NCBI GenBank assembly: GCA_028868515.1
Contig: JAGWUI010000015.1
Coordinates: 1-64,000, forward strand
Reading direction: 5' to 3'
DNA from: Gammaproteobacteria bacterium
GTDB taxonomy: Bacteria > Pseudomonadota > Gammaproteobacteria > Pseudomonadales > Moraxellaceae
Length of the DNA: 64,000 nucleotides
A program made the translations under genes and the position numbers. Numbering within the stretch: the stretch's first letter is position 1; each line of letters opens with the position of its first letter. Below are positions 12,491 to 17,243 of the stretch, in pieces. The notes beneath the pieces were generated by a model. It did not search any database. It had not been told where the DNA came from and saw nothing but the letters and a program-made list of their open reading frames with translations.

Positions 12491-13093
12491 ATGTACGAAG
12501 AAGAAATAGAAATTGCATCGCGCATCAATGCTGGTGATCGCAGCGCATTACGTGAAATTATGAAGCTCCACGGTGGCGCGATGATCGCCGCTGCGCGGGG
12601 AGTTTGCCCTCATGCTGTGGATGATGTGGTGCAAGAAGCGTGGATTGCAGCGCTTGCAGCGTTACCCAATTTTGAGCATCGTTCCAGCCTAAAAACATGG
12701 CTCGTGCGAATCACCATCAATAAAGCATACACCTATGTCCGCCAAACTCGGCGCGAAGTTTCGTTAGATGGTTTAAGTGATGCGCAAGATCCACTTCAGC
12801 ATTCTTTTGATGCATCTGATCACTGGGTATCGCCGTGGCAAGGCTGGACGGATGATTCTCCTGACAAGTTACTTGAAGCTCATGTTTTAAAAGAATGTTT
12901 AGAGAAGCATCTCGATAAACTTCCGCAAGGTCAGCGTATGGCGATGACTTTGACTGATTTTATGGGGCTTGATGCTGAAGAAGTGTGTAACAATTTGGCG
13001 GTTTCTGCGTCTAACTTACGGGTGCTATTGCATCGTGCGCGCATTACGATTCACGCGATGGTGGCGCATTACGAAGCGACTGGCGACTGCTAA
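12491..13093 (+). CDS. ECF RNA polymerase sigma factor
   Basis: Extracytoplasmic-function sigma factor, 200 residues. Region 2 is visible at about residues 24-95 (VDDVVQEAWIAALAALPNFEHRSSLKTWLVRITINKAYTYVR) and region 4 at about 132-190 (LPQGQRMAMTLTDFMGLDAEEVCNNLAVSASNLRVLLHRARI). A zinc-finger anti-sigma gene starts 10 bases downstream and the HvfA-type copper locus lies 1-2 kb further on. Related ECF factors control DoxX/bufferin loci in other proteobacteria, and both divergent promoters of that locus here carry an ECF-type -35/-10 pattern. I see no copy of that pattern before this gene, so autoregulation is not supported. Confidence 0.9.
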   Translation: MYEEEIEIASRINAGDRSALREIMKLHGGAMIAAARGVCPHAVDDVVQEAWIAALAALPNFEHRSSLKTWLVRITINKAYTYVRQTRREVSLDGLSDAQDPLQHSFDASDHWVSPWQGWTDDSPDKLLEAHVLKECLEKHLDKLPQGQRMAMTLTDFMGLDAEEVCNNLAVSASNLRVLLHRARITIHAMVAHYEATGDC

Positions 13094-13327: not shown

Positions 13328-14167
13328 ATGGATGAAAGCACTTTAGATAAAATTGCAGAAATTATCTGTGGGAATGGAGAACAATATCCTGAATATCGCT
13401 CCTCTGCTAAACTAACTGAATTTTTTGCTAGAGCAGGGGTTCCAAGATTTGTCCACGACGGTACAACACGTCAACGTTGGGTATTAGCTTGTCTTAACAA
13501 TTGCTCGCGAGATGAACTAGCCAAAGTATTAAAAAGACTAGTGTCTCCTAAAGAATATGCGGGGAATAAAACAAAGATAAGCCAAGCACTAAAATCCCTT
13601 AATGAAGCCACGTATGTTGAAGGTTTTCGTATTAAATTAGATGGTCTTGAAGCTAAATTTGAAAGAATAGAAATTAATTTTGAAGAAGACTCTATTGATG
13701 AATTAAAGCCGCTACCTCCTCCTGATTTTATGAATTTAGGCCTTGAAGCTGGAATTGGTGAGATATTACAGTCACGTTGGATAGAGACACAAAAATGTGT
13801 CGATGCGGAAGCTTTCCTTGCAAGTATTATTATGATGGGTAGTCTATTAGAAGGAATATTATTAGGTATATGCCAAAAAAAGCCCGCAGAGGTAAATACC
13901 TGTACTTCCGCACCTAAAGATAGTAAGACTGGGAAGGTTAAGAAATTCCACGAATGGAGTTTAGCTGAGATGATAGATGTAGCACATCAAATTGGCTGGC
14001 TTGGTTTAGATGTGAAGAAATTTAGCCATGTCTTGCGAGGCTTCAGAAACTTAGTTCACCCATATGAACATATGGTATCTGGCGCAAATCCAGACAAAGA
14101 TACATGCGGTATTTCTTGGCTAGTTGTCCAAGCTGCGGTAAATGATCTAGCAAAATCGATCAAATAA
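13328..14167 (+). CDS. AbiJ/HEPN-like protein (putative abortive infection)
   Basis: A 279-residue soluble protein. The N-terminal ~110 residues (RWVLACLNNCSRDELAKVLKRLVSPKEYAG...LNEATYVEGFRIKLDG) resemble the AbiJ N-terminal domain type 3. The C-terminal helical part has R237-x6-H244 in RGFRNLVHP, which fits the HEPN ribonuclease motif (R-x4-6-H). Such proteins act as toxins or RNases in phage defence. Composition is more A+T-rich than neighbours. It begins only 2 bases after the anti-sigma stop, so it may be cotranscribed with the sigma operon, and it separates that operon from the copper locus. No antitoxin partner is visible. Domain names are from motif recall, not a profile search. Confidence 0.6.
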   Translation: MDESTLDKIAEIICGNGEQYPEYRSSAKLTEFFARAGVPRFVHDGTTRQRWVLACLNNCSRDELAKVLKRLVSPKEYAGNKTKISQALKSLNEATYVEGFRIKLDGLEAKFERIEINFEEDSIDELKPLPPPDFMNLGLEAGIGEILQSRWIETQKCVDAEAFLASIIMMGSLLEGILLGICQKKPAEVNTCTSAPKDSKTGKVKKFHEWSLAEMIDVAHQIGWLGLDVKKFSHVLRGFRNLVHPYEHMVSGANPDKDTCGISWLVVQAAVNDLAKSIK

Positions 14168-14201: not shown

Positions 14202-14816
14202 TCAACGCTTCGTCATCTTCACCAACCAATAATCCACACTGACATAACGTCCACCGCCCATATAAATCAGTGCTAACAACATAATCAAGTAGGTCACGGC
14301 AAACTCAACGCCATTGTTAATAATCGCAAAATTACCACTTGATGTGAGCCAATCATAATTGCCATATTTCATCAGAATCTCACGTGCAGCTTCAATCTTA
14401 TCGCCCGACTCAATGACACGCTGATTAGCAAATGGCGCAGTGTAATCTGCTATCGCTTGCCAGCCATTTGGTAAATGCACCTTAAAGATCGCAACCAACA
14501 TCGTGACAATCAGTGGAATACTGATCCAACGCGTAAACAAACCTAAAGTCAGCAAAACTGCACCACTTAATTCTGTACCCGTAGCTAAACTCGCCATCAA
14601 AGTCGGAAATGGCAATCCCAATCCATCCGCGCCAAACCAAGCAACCGTATCCGAAAACGCAGCTAATTTATTCATGCCAGCAGTCCAGAATACAGGTGCG
14701 AGATAAAGCCGCAATGCCAACGCAGGAATCCCATCCAGAGGTTGCAGCAAACTTGATATACGATCTAGTAGTGTATGAACAGTTTGAATTGGAGATTTTA
14801 AGCAAATGGTTTTCAT
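14202..14816 (-). CDS. DoxX-family membrane protein of the HvfA/bufferin locus
   Basis: 204-residue inner-membrane protein with four predicted membrane helices and the DoxX pattern (LRLYLAPVFWTAGMNKL near residue 36, then TGTELSGAVLLTLGLFTRW). DoxX genes accompany MNIO-modified copper-binding peptides in many proteobacteria, where they are thought to help the redox or membrane side of the system. It is divergent from the precursor gene with 212 bases between. An ECF-type promoter reads into it about 30-40 bases upstream of the ATG and closely matches the promoter of the precursor gene. Confidence 0.85.
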   Translation of the reverse strand: MKTICLKSPIQTVHTLLDRISSLLQPLDGIPALALRLYLAPVFWTAGMNKLAAFSDTVAWFGADGLGLPFPTLMASLATGTELSGAVLLTLGLFTRWISIPLIVTMLVAIFKVHLPNGWQAIADYTAPFANQRVIESGDKIEAAREILMKYGNYDWLTSSGNFAIINNGVEFAVTYLIMLLALIYMGGGRYVSVDYWLVKMTKR

Positions 14817-14852: not shown

Positions 14853-14880
14853 TAGACACATGAGTCTTCATTTCATTACA
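14853..14880 (-). promoter_or_regulatory. ECF-type promoter for the doxX gene
   Basis: Read on the minus strand: TGTAAT (14880-14875), a 16-base spacer, then TGTCTA (14858-14853), placed 37 bases before the doxX start codon. The AAY at -35 and GTC at -10 are the ECF hallmark. The arrangement is the same as the promoter facing the precursor gene, with one change in each hexamer. Confidence 0.6.
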
Positions 14881-14935
14881 CGTCGCGATTAAAAAAACGA
14901 AAAAAAAATTTATTTAAAATATTTTTTGAAATCGA

Positions 14936-14963
14936 TGTAACAAATCCTGATGAACTTCGTCTA
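14936..14963 (+). promoter_or_regulatory. ECF-type promoter for the HvfA-like precursor gene
   Basis: TGTAAC (14936-14941), a 16-base spacer and CGTCTA (14958-14963) match the classic ECF promoter form (AAC at -35, CGTC at -10). A start site near 14970 would give a leader of about 60 bases before the precursor ATG. An A+T-rich tract separates this promoter from the divergent one. Confidence 0.65.
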
Positions 14964-15028
14964 CCTTAGGAGCGTACAACTGAGCGTGCGCCACTTAACC
15001 CAAATGCACATTTAAAGGAATACATTCC

Positions 15029-15418
15029 ATGTCAAACAAACTCCAAACTCTGACCCCAATCGCTGCAATGTTAGCAATGTCACTCACAGGTCTAGCACAT
15101 GCTGCGGATACAGCAAACCCAGCGCCTACAGCAATGGCAATGTCCAAAACAGCCGATGCAAATTGCGGGGCAAACAAAAAAACTCAAGAAGCCAAATGTG
15201 GTATTCATAAAGCAGCAATGGGCGGCATGAAAGAAGGCAAATGCGGTGAAGCAAAATGCGGTGCTGACAAAGGCAAAAAAATGGAACACGGCATGGTCGT
15301 CGAATCCTATGTCCACAAACCAGCCATGGGCGGCATGAAAGAAGGTAAATGCGGCGAAGCAAAATGCGGCGCGGACAAAGGCAAAAAAATGGAACACGGC
15401 ATGGTCGTCGAAAAATAA
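15029..15418 (+). CDS. hvfA: HvfA/bufferin-type precursor peptide (EGKCG copper-binding RiPP)
   Basis: 129-residue secreted precursor. A Sec signal peptide covers residues 1-25 (cleavage after GLAHA). The mature part has six cysteines, all followed by Gly: C46, C57, C72, C77, C108 and C113. Four lie in two EGKCGEAKCG units. In Haemophilus HvfA such cysteines are converted to oxazolone/thioamide pairs by the HvfB-HvfC enzyme, giving a copper-binding peptide. A 36-residue block (ending GKKMEHGMVVE) is present twice in tandem, with extra Met and His residues that could also bind metal. The modifying enzyme genes follow directly. The modification and metal in this organism are inferred. Confidence 0.85.
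   Translation: MSNKLQTLTPIAAMLAMSLTGLAHAADTANPAPTAMAMSKTADANCGANKKTQEAKCGIHKAAMGGMKEGKCGEAKCGADKGKKMEHGMVVESYVHKPAMGGMKEGKCGEAKCGADKGKKMEHGMVVEK
15209..15412 (+). repeat. Two tandem copies of a ~96-bp coding repeat in the precursor gene
   Basis: Copies at about 15209-15304 and 15317-15412, offset by 108 bp, differ at only a handful of bases, mostly silent. Each encodes the 32-residue segment from K-x-AMGGMKEGKCG to HGMVVE. Confidence 0.88.
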
Positions 15419-15517: not shown

Positions 15518-16426
15518 ATGGCGACATTGACCCAACAAAAAAATAATCAGATTTTGCATGGCGCAGGACTTGGGCTACGGCGCGACTTTATGCCAGAACT
15601 CAAACAAAGATTGGATTCAGGTGAAATCATCAATCCACCTGATTTCTATGAAATTGCGCCAGAAAACTGGATTGGCATGGGTGGTCGTCATGCACGCGTA
15701 TTGCGTGAATATACTGAAAAATATCCTTTTGCTTGTCATGGCCTGTCATTGTCGATTGGCGGTGTCAGTCCACTAAATATTGAATTTTTAAAGCAAATTC
15801 GTACATTTTTAGACACGCATCAAATCTCCATCTATTCCGAACATCTCAGCTATACCCATGACAGCTCATATTTATACGATCTGATGCCGATTCCCATGAC
15901 TTTGGGTGCAGCCAAATATGTCGCAGATCGCGTCATTCAAGCGCAAGAGATTTTAGGTCGTAGGCTTATCTTAGAAAACGTATCCACTTACGCCATGCCC
16001 GCAGCAGAAATGTCCGAAGCCGAATTCATTTGCGAAGTCATTCAACGCGCAGACTGCGACCTCTTGCTCGATGTAAATAATGTCTATGTGAATAGCATCA
16101 ACCATCACTCAGACGCACGCGCCTTGATTCAAGCGATGCCGCCTGAACGCATCCGCTATCTGCATATCGCAGGTCATCATCAGGAGGATGCAACGCTGTT
16201 GATTGATACGCATGGTAATGACGTGAATCATGCGGTGTGGGAACTTCTACAATTTACCTATGACACCATCGGCATACGCCCGACTTTGCTTGAACGGGAT
16301 TTTAATATTCCCTCATTGGATGGATTACTCAACGAAGTCGATCAGATCCGACATTTGCAAACGTCACATCGTCATCAGAAGTTCACACAACCAAATGCGC
16401 ATGAATTAAGCCACGCGAGCGCATAA
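15518..16426 (+). CDS. hvfB: MNIO-family RiPP modifying enzyme (DUF692, HvfB/BufB)
   Basis: Multinuclear non-heme iron-dependent oxidase that, with its partner, modifies cysteines of the precursor. The DUF692 TIM-barrel ligands are present: YEIAPENW (E45), CHGLSLS (H74), SEHLSY (E108, H109), LENVSTY (E153, N154), LDVNNVYVN (D185, N187), NHH (H196, H197), HIAGHH (H216, H220), DTHG (D230, H232) and ERD (E259, D261). Length 302 fits the family. The start has GGAATC just upstream. The partner gene begins 1 base after its stop, so the two are translationally coupled. The protein should act in the cytoplasm before export of the precursor. Confidence 0.92.
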   Translation: MATLTQQKNNQILHGAGLGLRRDFMPELKQRLDSGEIINPPDFYEIAPENWIGMGGRHARVLREYTEKYPFACHGLSLSIGGVSPLNIEFLKQIRTFLDTHQISIYSEHLSYTHDSSYLYDLMPIPMTLGAAKYVADRVIQAQEILGRRLILENVSTYAMPAAEMSEAEFICEVIQRADCDLLLDVNNVYVNSINHHSDARALIQAMPPERIRYLHIAGHHQEDATLLIDTHGNDVNHAVWELLQFTYDTIGIRPTLLERDFNIPSLDGLLNEVDQIRHLQTSHRHQKFTQPNAHELSHASA

Positions 16427-16427
16427 C

Positions 16428-17243
16428 ATGACTAACGCCAATATGATTCATTCAAATGATTTTCAGACACATCAGCGCGCCTTTACACATTGGATTCGTC
16501 ATTCTGAGCACGCACCATTACCAGATCATGTTTCTGCGGAACGCATGACGATTTACCGAGAACTCATTTTTAATAATATTTCGAGCTTCATTGAACACAC
16601 TTACCCCGTGACACAAGCCTTGCTGCCAACTGAAATATGGGATGCATTAACTCATTTATTTTTTCAACAAGGACAATGTGATTCGCCGTATTATTATGAT
16701 ATTTCAATGCATTTCAAAGATTTCATAGATCAAGAAGAATTTAATTCCATTGAATCACTACACAGTCTTCATCAAACCTATTCATGGCTGCGTGAACTCA
16801 TGCAATATGAATGGATGGAGCTTTACGTCGATATGGCGGAAACCTCTTGGCTTGAAGACAACTCGTCCGAATCATCGAATGTGGATATTCAACAACTCTC
16901 GCCTGATCACTCCTTCACATTGAAAACAACTTGTTGGATATTGGCGTACCAATATCCCGTTCACACTTGGTCAACAACCACACAACTAGCAGATATTCAG
17001 ATCACACCAACCTGCTTGCTCATTTATCGGAATCGCAGCGACGAGATGCAGGTTCACCCACTTCATCCGTTATGGGCATTTCTTTTGGAGACCATTCAGA
17101 ATCAAGAGAACATGCATTTCGACAAGCTCACCGCACAACTCCAAGAGGCGACTCAACTTGCCAAAGAAACAATCGACGAAATAACCATCAACCTACTCAG
17201 TTGGCTGAAAACATTGACATTACTACATGTCAACATTTCTTGA
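16428..17243 (+). CDS. hvfC: HvfC/BufC-type partner of the MNIO enzyme (DUF2063)
   Basis: 271-residue protein with an N-terminal DUF2063 helical domain (QRAFTHWIRH...RMTIYRELIFNNISSFIEHTYPVTQALL, residues about 14-65) and a C-terminal winged-helix-like domain that resembles RiPP recognition elements. Partner proteins of this kind bind the precursor and present it to the MNIO enzyme. It follows the hvfB-like gene by one base. Nothing suggests export or membrane insertion. It is probably the last gene of the plus-strand unit, since 170 bases separate it from the CBS protein gene. Confidence 0.87.
   Translation: MTNANMIHSNDFQTHQRAFTHWIRHSEHAPLPDHVSAERMTIYRELIFNNISSFIEHTYPVTQALLPTEIWDALTHLFFQQGQCDSPYYYDISMHFKDFIDQEEFNSIESLHSLHQTYSWLRELMQYEWMELYVDMAETSWLEDNSSESSNVDIQQLSPDHSFTLKTTCWILAYQYPVHTWSTTTQLADIQITPTCLLIYRNRSDEMQVHPLHPLWAFLLETIQNQENMHFDKLTAQLQEATQLAKETIDEITINLLSWLKTLTLLHVNIS

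Follow-up and report, generated by a model that had tools for sequence, protein, structure and literature searches.

The sigma-E / MseR pair of Neisseria, encoded in the NMB2140-2145 operon, consists of an ECF sigma factor and a small anti-sigma factor with a zinc motif (PMC2893595, PMC3240639). According to the accessible part of PMC2893595, its promoters combine a -35 element GTMAGBWTT and a -10 element CGTCTAAH that lie 12-13 bases apart, the consensus also includes an A/T-rich stretch upstream of the -35, and the regulon comprises the sigma factor's own operon and, as the other proven target, msrA/msrB. Haemophilus influenzae RpoE2 / HrsE also pairs a sigma factor with a co-transcribed zinc-type anti-sigma factor and activates msrAB; rpoE2 itself is hardly autoregulated (a 284-bp region upstream of the gene was inactive and an 865-bp region went from 11 to 95 units), and the targets tested in the accessible text were msrAB, dmt, and rpoE2, with no hvf promoter among them and no promoter motif given (PMC7907618). 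The Haemophilus hvf/oxazolin cluster encodes HvfA with KCG repeats, HvfB, HvfC, and HvfX, and oxazolin, a related Haemophilus product, is described as a copper-binding peptide; the accessible text on this cluster does not cover its control by a sigma factor (PMC13419390). Acinetobacter SigAb / AabA-AabB, from the family that also contains the closest named relatives of the DNA studied here, is a copper-responsive ECF sigma factor with its anti-sigma genes in the operon; it differs in its promoter (GTCAAC / CGTT) and in being autoregulated, and DUF692 and DoxX are unmentioned in the accessible part of its description (PMC12153292). In Corynebacterium glutamicum, sigH-rshA is reported to be transcribed from housekeeping promoters, while a SigH-dependent promoter inside the coding sequence of sigH, PrshA, drives rshA alone (PMC3489674). 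A stress promoter upstream of rshA was found in 63 Corynebacterium species and is explained as securing a sufficient supply of anti-sigma factor once the stress has passed (PMC10012870).

Layout of the locus and comparison with described systems

The window, i.e., the whole 64-kb stretch of DNA that we analyzed, is part of a 3.34-Mb genome (G000, contig C34), whose closest named public relatives are Moraxellaceae MAGs, followed by Perlucidibaca, Paraperlucidibaca, and Amnimonas. The genes of interest run in the order truB (-), ECF sigma factor (+), anti-sigma factor (+), a 279-aa ORF (+), hvfX (-), and an hvfA-type precursor, hvfB, and hvfC (+) (Table 1). HvfB, HvfC, and HvfX all scored above curated cut-offs, as expected of an hvf/oxazolin-type cluster, and an MNIO gene of the hvfB kind was present once per genome in all seven genomes searched. 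The precursor passed the repeat-domain model and fell below the cut-off of the HvfA equivalog NF050188 (32.6 bits vs. 95), and is thus called hvfA-type rather than HvfA proper. The anti-sigma factor also matched the anti-sigma family NF052368 (67.1 bits, cut-off 50), and Cys4, His30, Cys34, and Cys37 are present when residues of its translation are counted. The 279-aa ORF matched nothing in Pfam and NCBIfam profile searches and gave a single, very weak PADLOC match (Stk2, E 0.0078); it was found in one congener (G001, 83% identity), tblastn of the corresponding stretches of two others (G002 and G003) returned no match, and it looks like an accessory insertion.

Table 1. Coordinates of the features of the sigma factor-hvf locus in the window
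Feature	Position	Strand	Evidence
ECF sigma factor gene, 200 aa	12491..13093	+	Pfam Sigma70_r2 51.5 bits (cut-off 24), Sigma70_r4_2 36.3 bits (cut-off 25.7)
Third exact copy of the pattern, in sigma codons 166-175, toward anti-sigma gene	12986..13013	+	exact match
Anti-sigma factor, 73 aa	13104..13325	+	zf-HC2 36.8 bits (cut-off 22.2)
Accessory ORF, 279 aa, directly 3' of anti-sigma gene	13328..14167	+	no family assigned
hvfX (DoxX family)	14202..14816	-	NF050144 226.3 bits (cut-off 80); DoxX 75.6 bits
Putative ECF-type promoter of hvfX, TGTAAT-N16-TGTCTA, TGTAATGAAATGAAGACTCATGTGTCTA	14853..14880	-	exact match; predicted start about 14846
A/T-rich tract separating the two -35 boxes, 55 bases	14881..14935	.	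sequence
Putative ECF-type promoter of hvfABC, TGTAAC-N16-CGTCTA, TGTAACAAATCCTGATGAACTTCGTCTA	14936..14963	+	exact match; predicted start near 14971
hvfA-type metallophore precursor, 129 aa, KCGE repeats	15029..15418	+	NF050137 domain 44.8 bits (cut-off 19.5)
hvfB, MNIO maturase	15518..16426	+	NF003818 393.9 bits (cut-off 360)
hvfC, partner protein	16428..17243	+	NF050145 193.6 bits (cut-off 142)

The comparison with the Neisseria and Haemophilus systems was made by published description. As in Neisseria, the window encodes an ECF sigma factor next to a small zinc-motif anti-sigma factor, whose Cys4 and H-x3-C-x2-C residues correspond to positions studied in MseR; both systems also share a DoxX gene (there within the sigma factor's operon) and msrA/msrB as a target, proven in Neisseria and proposed here (PMC2893595, PMC3240639). 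The -10 element CGTCTA and the -35 to -10 distance agree with those of the window sites, whereas the -35 is GTAAG-like in Neisseria and TGTAAC or TGTAAT in the window, and sigma and anti-sigma lie within the regulated operon in Neisseria, whereas no site precedes the sigma gene here. The hvf genes are of the kinds described for the Haemophilus cluster, but hvfX is divergent from hvfABC in the window (PMC13419390).

Divergent sites between hvfX and hvfABC

A preliminary description of this DNA had reported two divergent promoters of the form TGTAAY-N16-YGTCTA, the plus-strand one facing the precursor gene and the minus-strand one facing doxX. Both sites, their letters, their 16-base spacers, and their orientations were reproduced exactly in the window sequence, with the genes in question being the hvfA-type precursor and hvfX. 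The assignment to ECF recognition is supported as well, in that the sites carry the AAC-like -35, the CGT-like -10, and the 16-17 base spacing given as the rule for this promoter class in the accessible part of PMC8103513. The A/T-rich stretch that separates the -35 boxes may be a shared UP-like element.

The pattern occurred three times in the window against 0.02 expected, and none of 100 shuffles of the window reached three matches. This enrichment is an unfair test by itself, because two of the three sites had served to define the pattern, which was therefore evaluated elsewhere. The whole genome contains six exact matches, three of which lie outside the window: one before an msrB-msrA pair, one in an 859-aa ORF, and one in the 3' end of another ORF. 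The site before msrB ends 54 bases upstream of the gene, whose product scored 178.1 bits against a cut-off of 113.05; its leader presumably is a twin-arginine signal, and we take the next ORF, by eye, to be msrA. Recognized in the same way, the 859-aa ORF is presumably a Tn3-type transposase and the other ORF appears to be ferredoxin-like. These two matches, on contigs C25 and C88, were set aside as chance, because of their position within ORFs and because genes of these kinds do not recur among the exact matches of three congeners. The genome scan that had been proposed for defining the regulon thus yielded the msrB-msrA site in its exact form, but the relaxed form could not define a regulon, since the 35 one-mismatch matches in the genome were fewer than the 75 of the backward control pattern.

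The congeners, i.e., three other genomes of the window's genus that our searches revealed (G001, G002, and G003), preserved the hvfA site exactly in all cases and the hvfX site in two of three, one -10 letter being changed in G001 (AGTCTA). In the four-genome alignment of the genus, the surrounding bases have drifted while the sites were kept. A long-form msrB was found in the window's genome, G001, and G002, with the exact site preceding msrB-msrA in all three; in G003 the search found no long form, only a shorter msrB with 45% identity. Across six relatives there were 18 exact matches (vs. 8 for the backward control): four before hvfA, two before hvfX, six inside sigma genes, two before msrB-msrA, and four without a link to known genes (L074, L081, L086, and L088). 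The L081 site precedes a gene that we take, by eye, to encode a desaturase. The site at L086 (G003:C1:2120770-2120797) points away from the neighbouring ORF, which we take to encode the periplasmic methionine sulfoxide reductase MsrP, and no gene was seen in the site's own direction.

Beyond the genus, intergenic motif matches within 250 bases of an ORF numbered eight in 80 named loci, against none for the backward motif. In other families that carry an orthologous sigma factor, hvf genes are likewise preceded by related sites. An hvf-anchored test covered the 40 loci that have hvfA, hvfB, or hvfX out of 97, these being the 101 loci entered minus four (L156, L259, L260, and L261) whose sigma factor was missed by the helix pattern. 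A loose site preceded an hvf gene in 38 of the 40 (backward pattern 6, opposite strand 8) and a strict site in 21 (backward 0, opposite strand 6); divergent pairs can explain some of the opposite-strand matches, and the counts across loci are not independent, because the sequences are related. Overall, we consider it very likely that the two reported divergent sites are promoters. The earlier suggestion that one sigma factor, probably the one encoded at 12.5 kb, serves both sides of the locus is supported by the comparison across genomes, by which both sites are probably read by this linked sigma factor.

A conserved copy within the sigma factor gene

The preliminary description had found no such pattern upstream of the sigma gene, which is correct for the window, and had missed the copy inside the gene. 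No site precedes the sigma gene in G001 or G003 either, and in G002 the contig extends only 40 bases upstream of the gene; elsewhere, L161 and L196 have a site before the sigma gene, and L169 and L171 possibly do. The intragenic copy falls within the region-4 domain match (residues 135-184), in the codons of the DNA-binding region 4.2. Its start point, predicted by analogy, would be near 13020, and the anti-sigma gene starts about 84 bases beyond. All three congeners have the exact copy, as do four of seven genomes of genus g2 in their main sigma gene (G004, G019, G030, and G257); the other three (G256, G258, and G259) deviate in one or more -10 letters. Four g2 genomes additionally carry a second related sigma factor without the Cys-Asn pair (L058, L060, L061, and L114); in G030 (L061), it lies beside hvf genes, of which hvfA has an exact site.

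We assembled 83 orthologues (80 from a collection scan plus those of the window, G003, and G004). The -35 half, TGTAA, was kept in 80 of them; Pseudomonas aeruginosa PA7 (L181) lost the copy, and L131 and L132 read TGTCAC. The -10 half varies, and only 11 genes hold the full exact pattern. Order- and class-level searches added 45 loci, whose species may overlap the 80, and TGTAA was present in all 41 that could be read by the pattern (L227, L228, L242, and L243 could not). The class-level copies read TGTAAG in 6 of 14 cases. The idea that the intragenic -35 there follows the Neisseria GTAAG form was dropped, the intergenic candidates of L246, L249, L250, and L253 reading TGTAAC.

The divergent sites could be genuine while the intragenic copy is mere coding sequence, in which Cys-Asn and Ser-Asn are required by region 4.2 and the resemblance of their codons to the pattern is accidental. 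The conservation of this region at the protein level, the small number of full exact patterns noted above, and the Pseudomonas copies that lack the local -10 are in line with such an explanation. Amino acid requirements nevertheless leave the codons unexplained. Cys166 is encoded by TGT in 82 of the 82 orthologues that have it (P. aeruginosa PA7 being the only one without), compared to 38% for cysteines elsewhere in the same genes and to 33 and 32 of 83 at two other conserved cysteines of the sigma factor. Its third base underwent no change on the protein tree, against 5-23 changes in 20 other conserved two-fold columns. The same preferences persist in the 52 orthologues with GC3 above 0.6, where TGT encodes Cys166 in 51/51, GCA encodes Ala173 in 23/24, and AAT encodes Asn175 in 45/52 (vs. 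23%, 8%, and 33%, respectively, at other positions of these genes), and the choice of GCA and AAT in such GC-rich genes is likewise not accounted for by coding. Ranked by codon bias among 153 testable columns, codons 173, 174, and 166 occupy the top three places, 175 the seventh, and 167 the tenth; the choice at Ser174 may be biased because it falls, together with Asn175, within the peptide pattern of the scan, outside of which lie Cys166, Asn167, and Ala173. Moreover, four paralogous sigma factors that have the Cys but no Asn are split evenly between TGT and TGC, two and two. The DNA of the intragenic copy is thus constrained at the codon level, and we regard an origin from coding alone as unlikely.

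Codons 196 and 199 of the sigma gene (window 13076-13078 and 13085-13087) are also strong codon-bias outliers among the 83 orthologues; they may belong to the ribosome-binding region of the anti-sigma gene, because that gene overlaps the end of the sigma gene in many orthologues.

The -10 half offers a second line of comparison, as its form varies by clade and the intragenic copy tends toward the local form. Shared forms include GTCTA in the window's genus, ATCTA in L120, CATCGAA in L140, and CATCCA in Alloalcanivorax (L147 and L153); in L124, GTCCA is shared with the hvfA site, and the hvfX site reads GTCTG. In the hvf-anchored set, both variable -10 letters agreed in 21 of 42 pairs, compared to 11.5 under free shuffling (p 0.00015) and 17.2 under shuffling within families (p 0.0036). 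This test was made after an unanchored one and allowed looser spacing (15-17) and CGTAA, with L061 and L181 left out of the pairs, their intragenic copies not starting with TGTAA. In the unanchored test, which used any ORF, both letters agreed in 17 of 32 pairs (vs. 6.8), and co-variation within families was not significant (p 0.39, 0.34, and 0.053). Five Pseudomonas loci (L178, L179, L182, L193, and L197) read TCTCCA inside the sigma gene vs. CGTCTA or GGTCTA before hvf, a sixth (L194) shows agreement of the two, and all eight Kangiellaceae pairs disagree. The -35 half is therefore nearly universal, as the orthologue counts above indicate. For the -10 half, the case is convincing among Moraxellaceae and fair among Alcanivoracaceae, but doubtful for Pseudomonas and Kangiellaceae.

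An element under such constraint might act without initiating transcription: the sigma holoenzyme might bind or pause there, or the element might be a decoy or might influence, as RNA, the translation of the overlapping anti-sigma gene. The -35 half being stricter than the -10 half would suit such a role, as would the bias at codons 196 and 199, where the sigma gene overlaps the start region of the anti-sigma gene, and the binding or pausing of sigma factors at promoter-like sites within genes is mentioned in the accessible part of PMC10771440. Yet the codon outliers fall exactly on both the -35 and the -10 halves, and the intragenic -10 tracks the local intergenic form better than shuffled pairs do, so we consider a non-initiating role quite improbable. 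Least probable of all, in our assessment, is that another ECF sigma factor of the genome reads the divergent promoters, for which one could cite the eight sigma-like candidates listed in the window's genome at first look and the second related sigma factor of genus g2, encoded beside hvf genes in G030 (L061), but only one of the eight candidates passed E 1e-20, the sites and the linked sigma factor co-occur across families, and the element lies within the sigma gene itself.

The intragenic copy, in our judgment, is probably a promoter. That the region-4.2 codons double as the promoter of their own sigma factor throughout this group of sigma factors, which is spread over Gammaproteobacteria, is a somewhat less secure reading that we nonetheless favor, and the Cys-Asn pair may then be kept for the sake of the DNA rather than the protein. 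The kind of system is already known; what is unexpected is that a conserved promoter-like element occupies region-4.2 codons of its own most likely reader, the sigma factor. No account of an intragenic promoter in this group of sigma factors was found in a search of open-access literature.

Proposed circuit and wider reach

We think it likely that the targets of the linked sigma factor are hvfABC, hvfX, msrBA, and, through the intragenic copy, the anti-sigma gene. In the circuit that we propose on the basis of the sites, their conservation, and the codon constraint, binding by the sigma factor, transcription from each site, a feedback role, and an inducing stress would fit together as follows. 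In its simplest form, the sigma and anti-sigma genes would be transcribed from a housekeeping promoter, and a stress, perhaps metal or oxidant by analogy, would release the sigma factor from the anti-sigma factor. The freed sigma factor would activate hvfABC, hvfX, and the distant msrB-msrA operon, and would also raise anti-sigma mRNA through the promoter inside its own gene, by which inhibition would be restored. Such feedback could act as a built-in shut-off without raising the sigma factor itself. It is the third copy that changes the proposed circuit, because the anti-sigma gene has a site in front and the sigma gene has none.

This proposed topology, in which a promoter of the sigma factor's class lies inside the sigma gene, the anti-sigma gene lies downstream, and no such promoter precedes the sigma gene, is the same as that of Corynebacterium SigH/RshA, which differs in its phylum, its sigma group, and its promoter (GGAAT / GTT) (PMC3489674, PMC10012870). 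A further difference is that the window element occupies region-4.2 codons and is kept across Gammaproteobacteria, codon constraint being a subject on which the accessible parts of the Corynebacterium papers are silent. At L121, the sigma, anti-sigma, and hvfABC genes are collinear and the intragenic copy is the sole site found by the patterns, so this copy may also feed hvf there.

Candidate sites in other loci give hints of a wider response to metals, metalloids, and oxidants. At L140, a candidate site precedes an ArsM-like methyltransferase gene, and at L253, an ArsS radical-SAM gene (461 against a cut-off of 300) lies 213 bases beyond the candidate site, which makes a link to arsenosugars possible. 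Sites in Alcanivorax L145 and in G019 (L074) precede PstS-like substrate-binding genes that scored below the cut-off of the PstS model; the names ArsM and PstS are given by resemblance, because the models, including that for ArsM at L140, were not passed. A candidate site at L133 precedes a flavoprotein gene. We also observed sites before genes that begin like ArsM-type methyltransferases (L146, L147, and L258), before PstS-like genes in further Alcanivorax loci (L146 and L152), and, in a Kangiellaceae locus (L158:4250-5749, minus strand), facing a glutamate-synthase-domain gene (PF01645, 284 bits) just before hvfX.

This reading ties the copper-binding peptides, a family recognized only recently, to one specific sigma factor with a small regulon. 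It also provides an example, open to experiment, of a regulator whose recognition domain would be encoded by the same DNA as one of its targets. If this is true, synonymous changes in the sigma gene would alter the feedback while leaving the protein unaltered, and the target motifs of sigma factors whose genes lack an upstream autoregulatory site could be recognized from constraint on codons.
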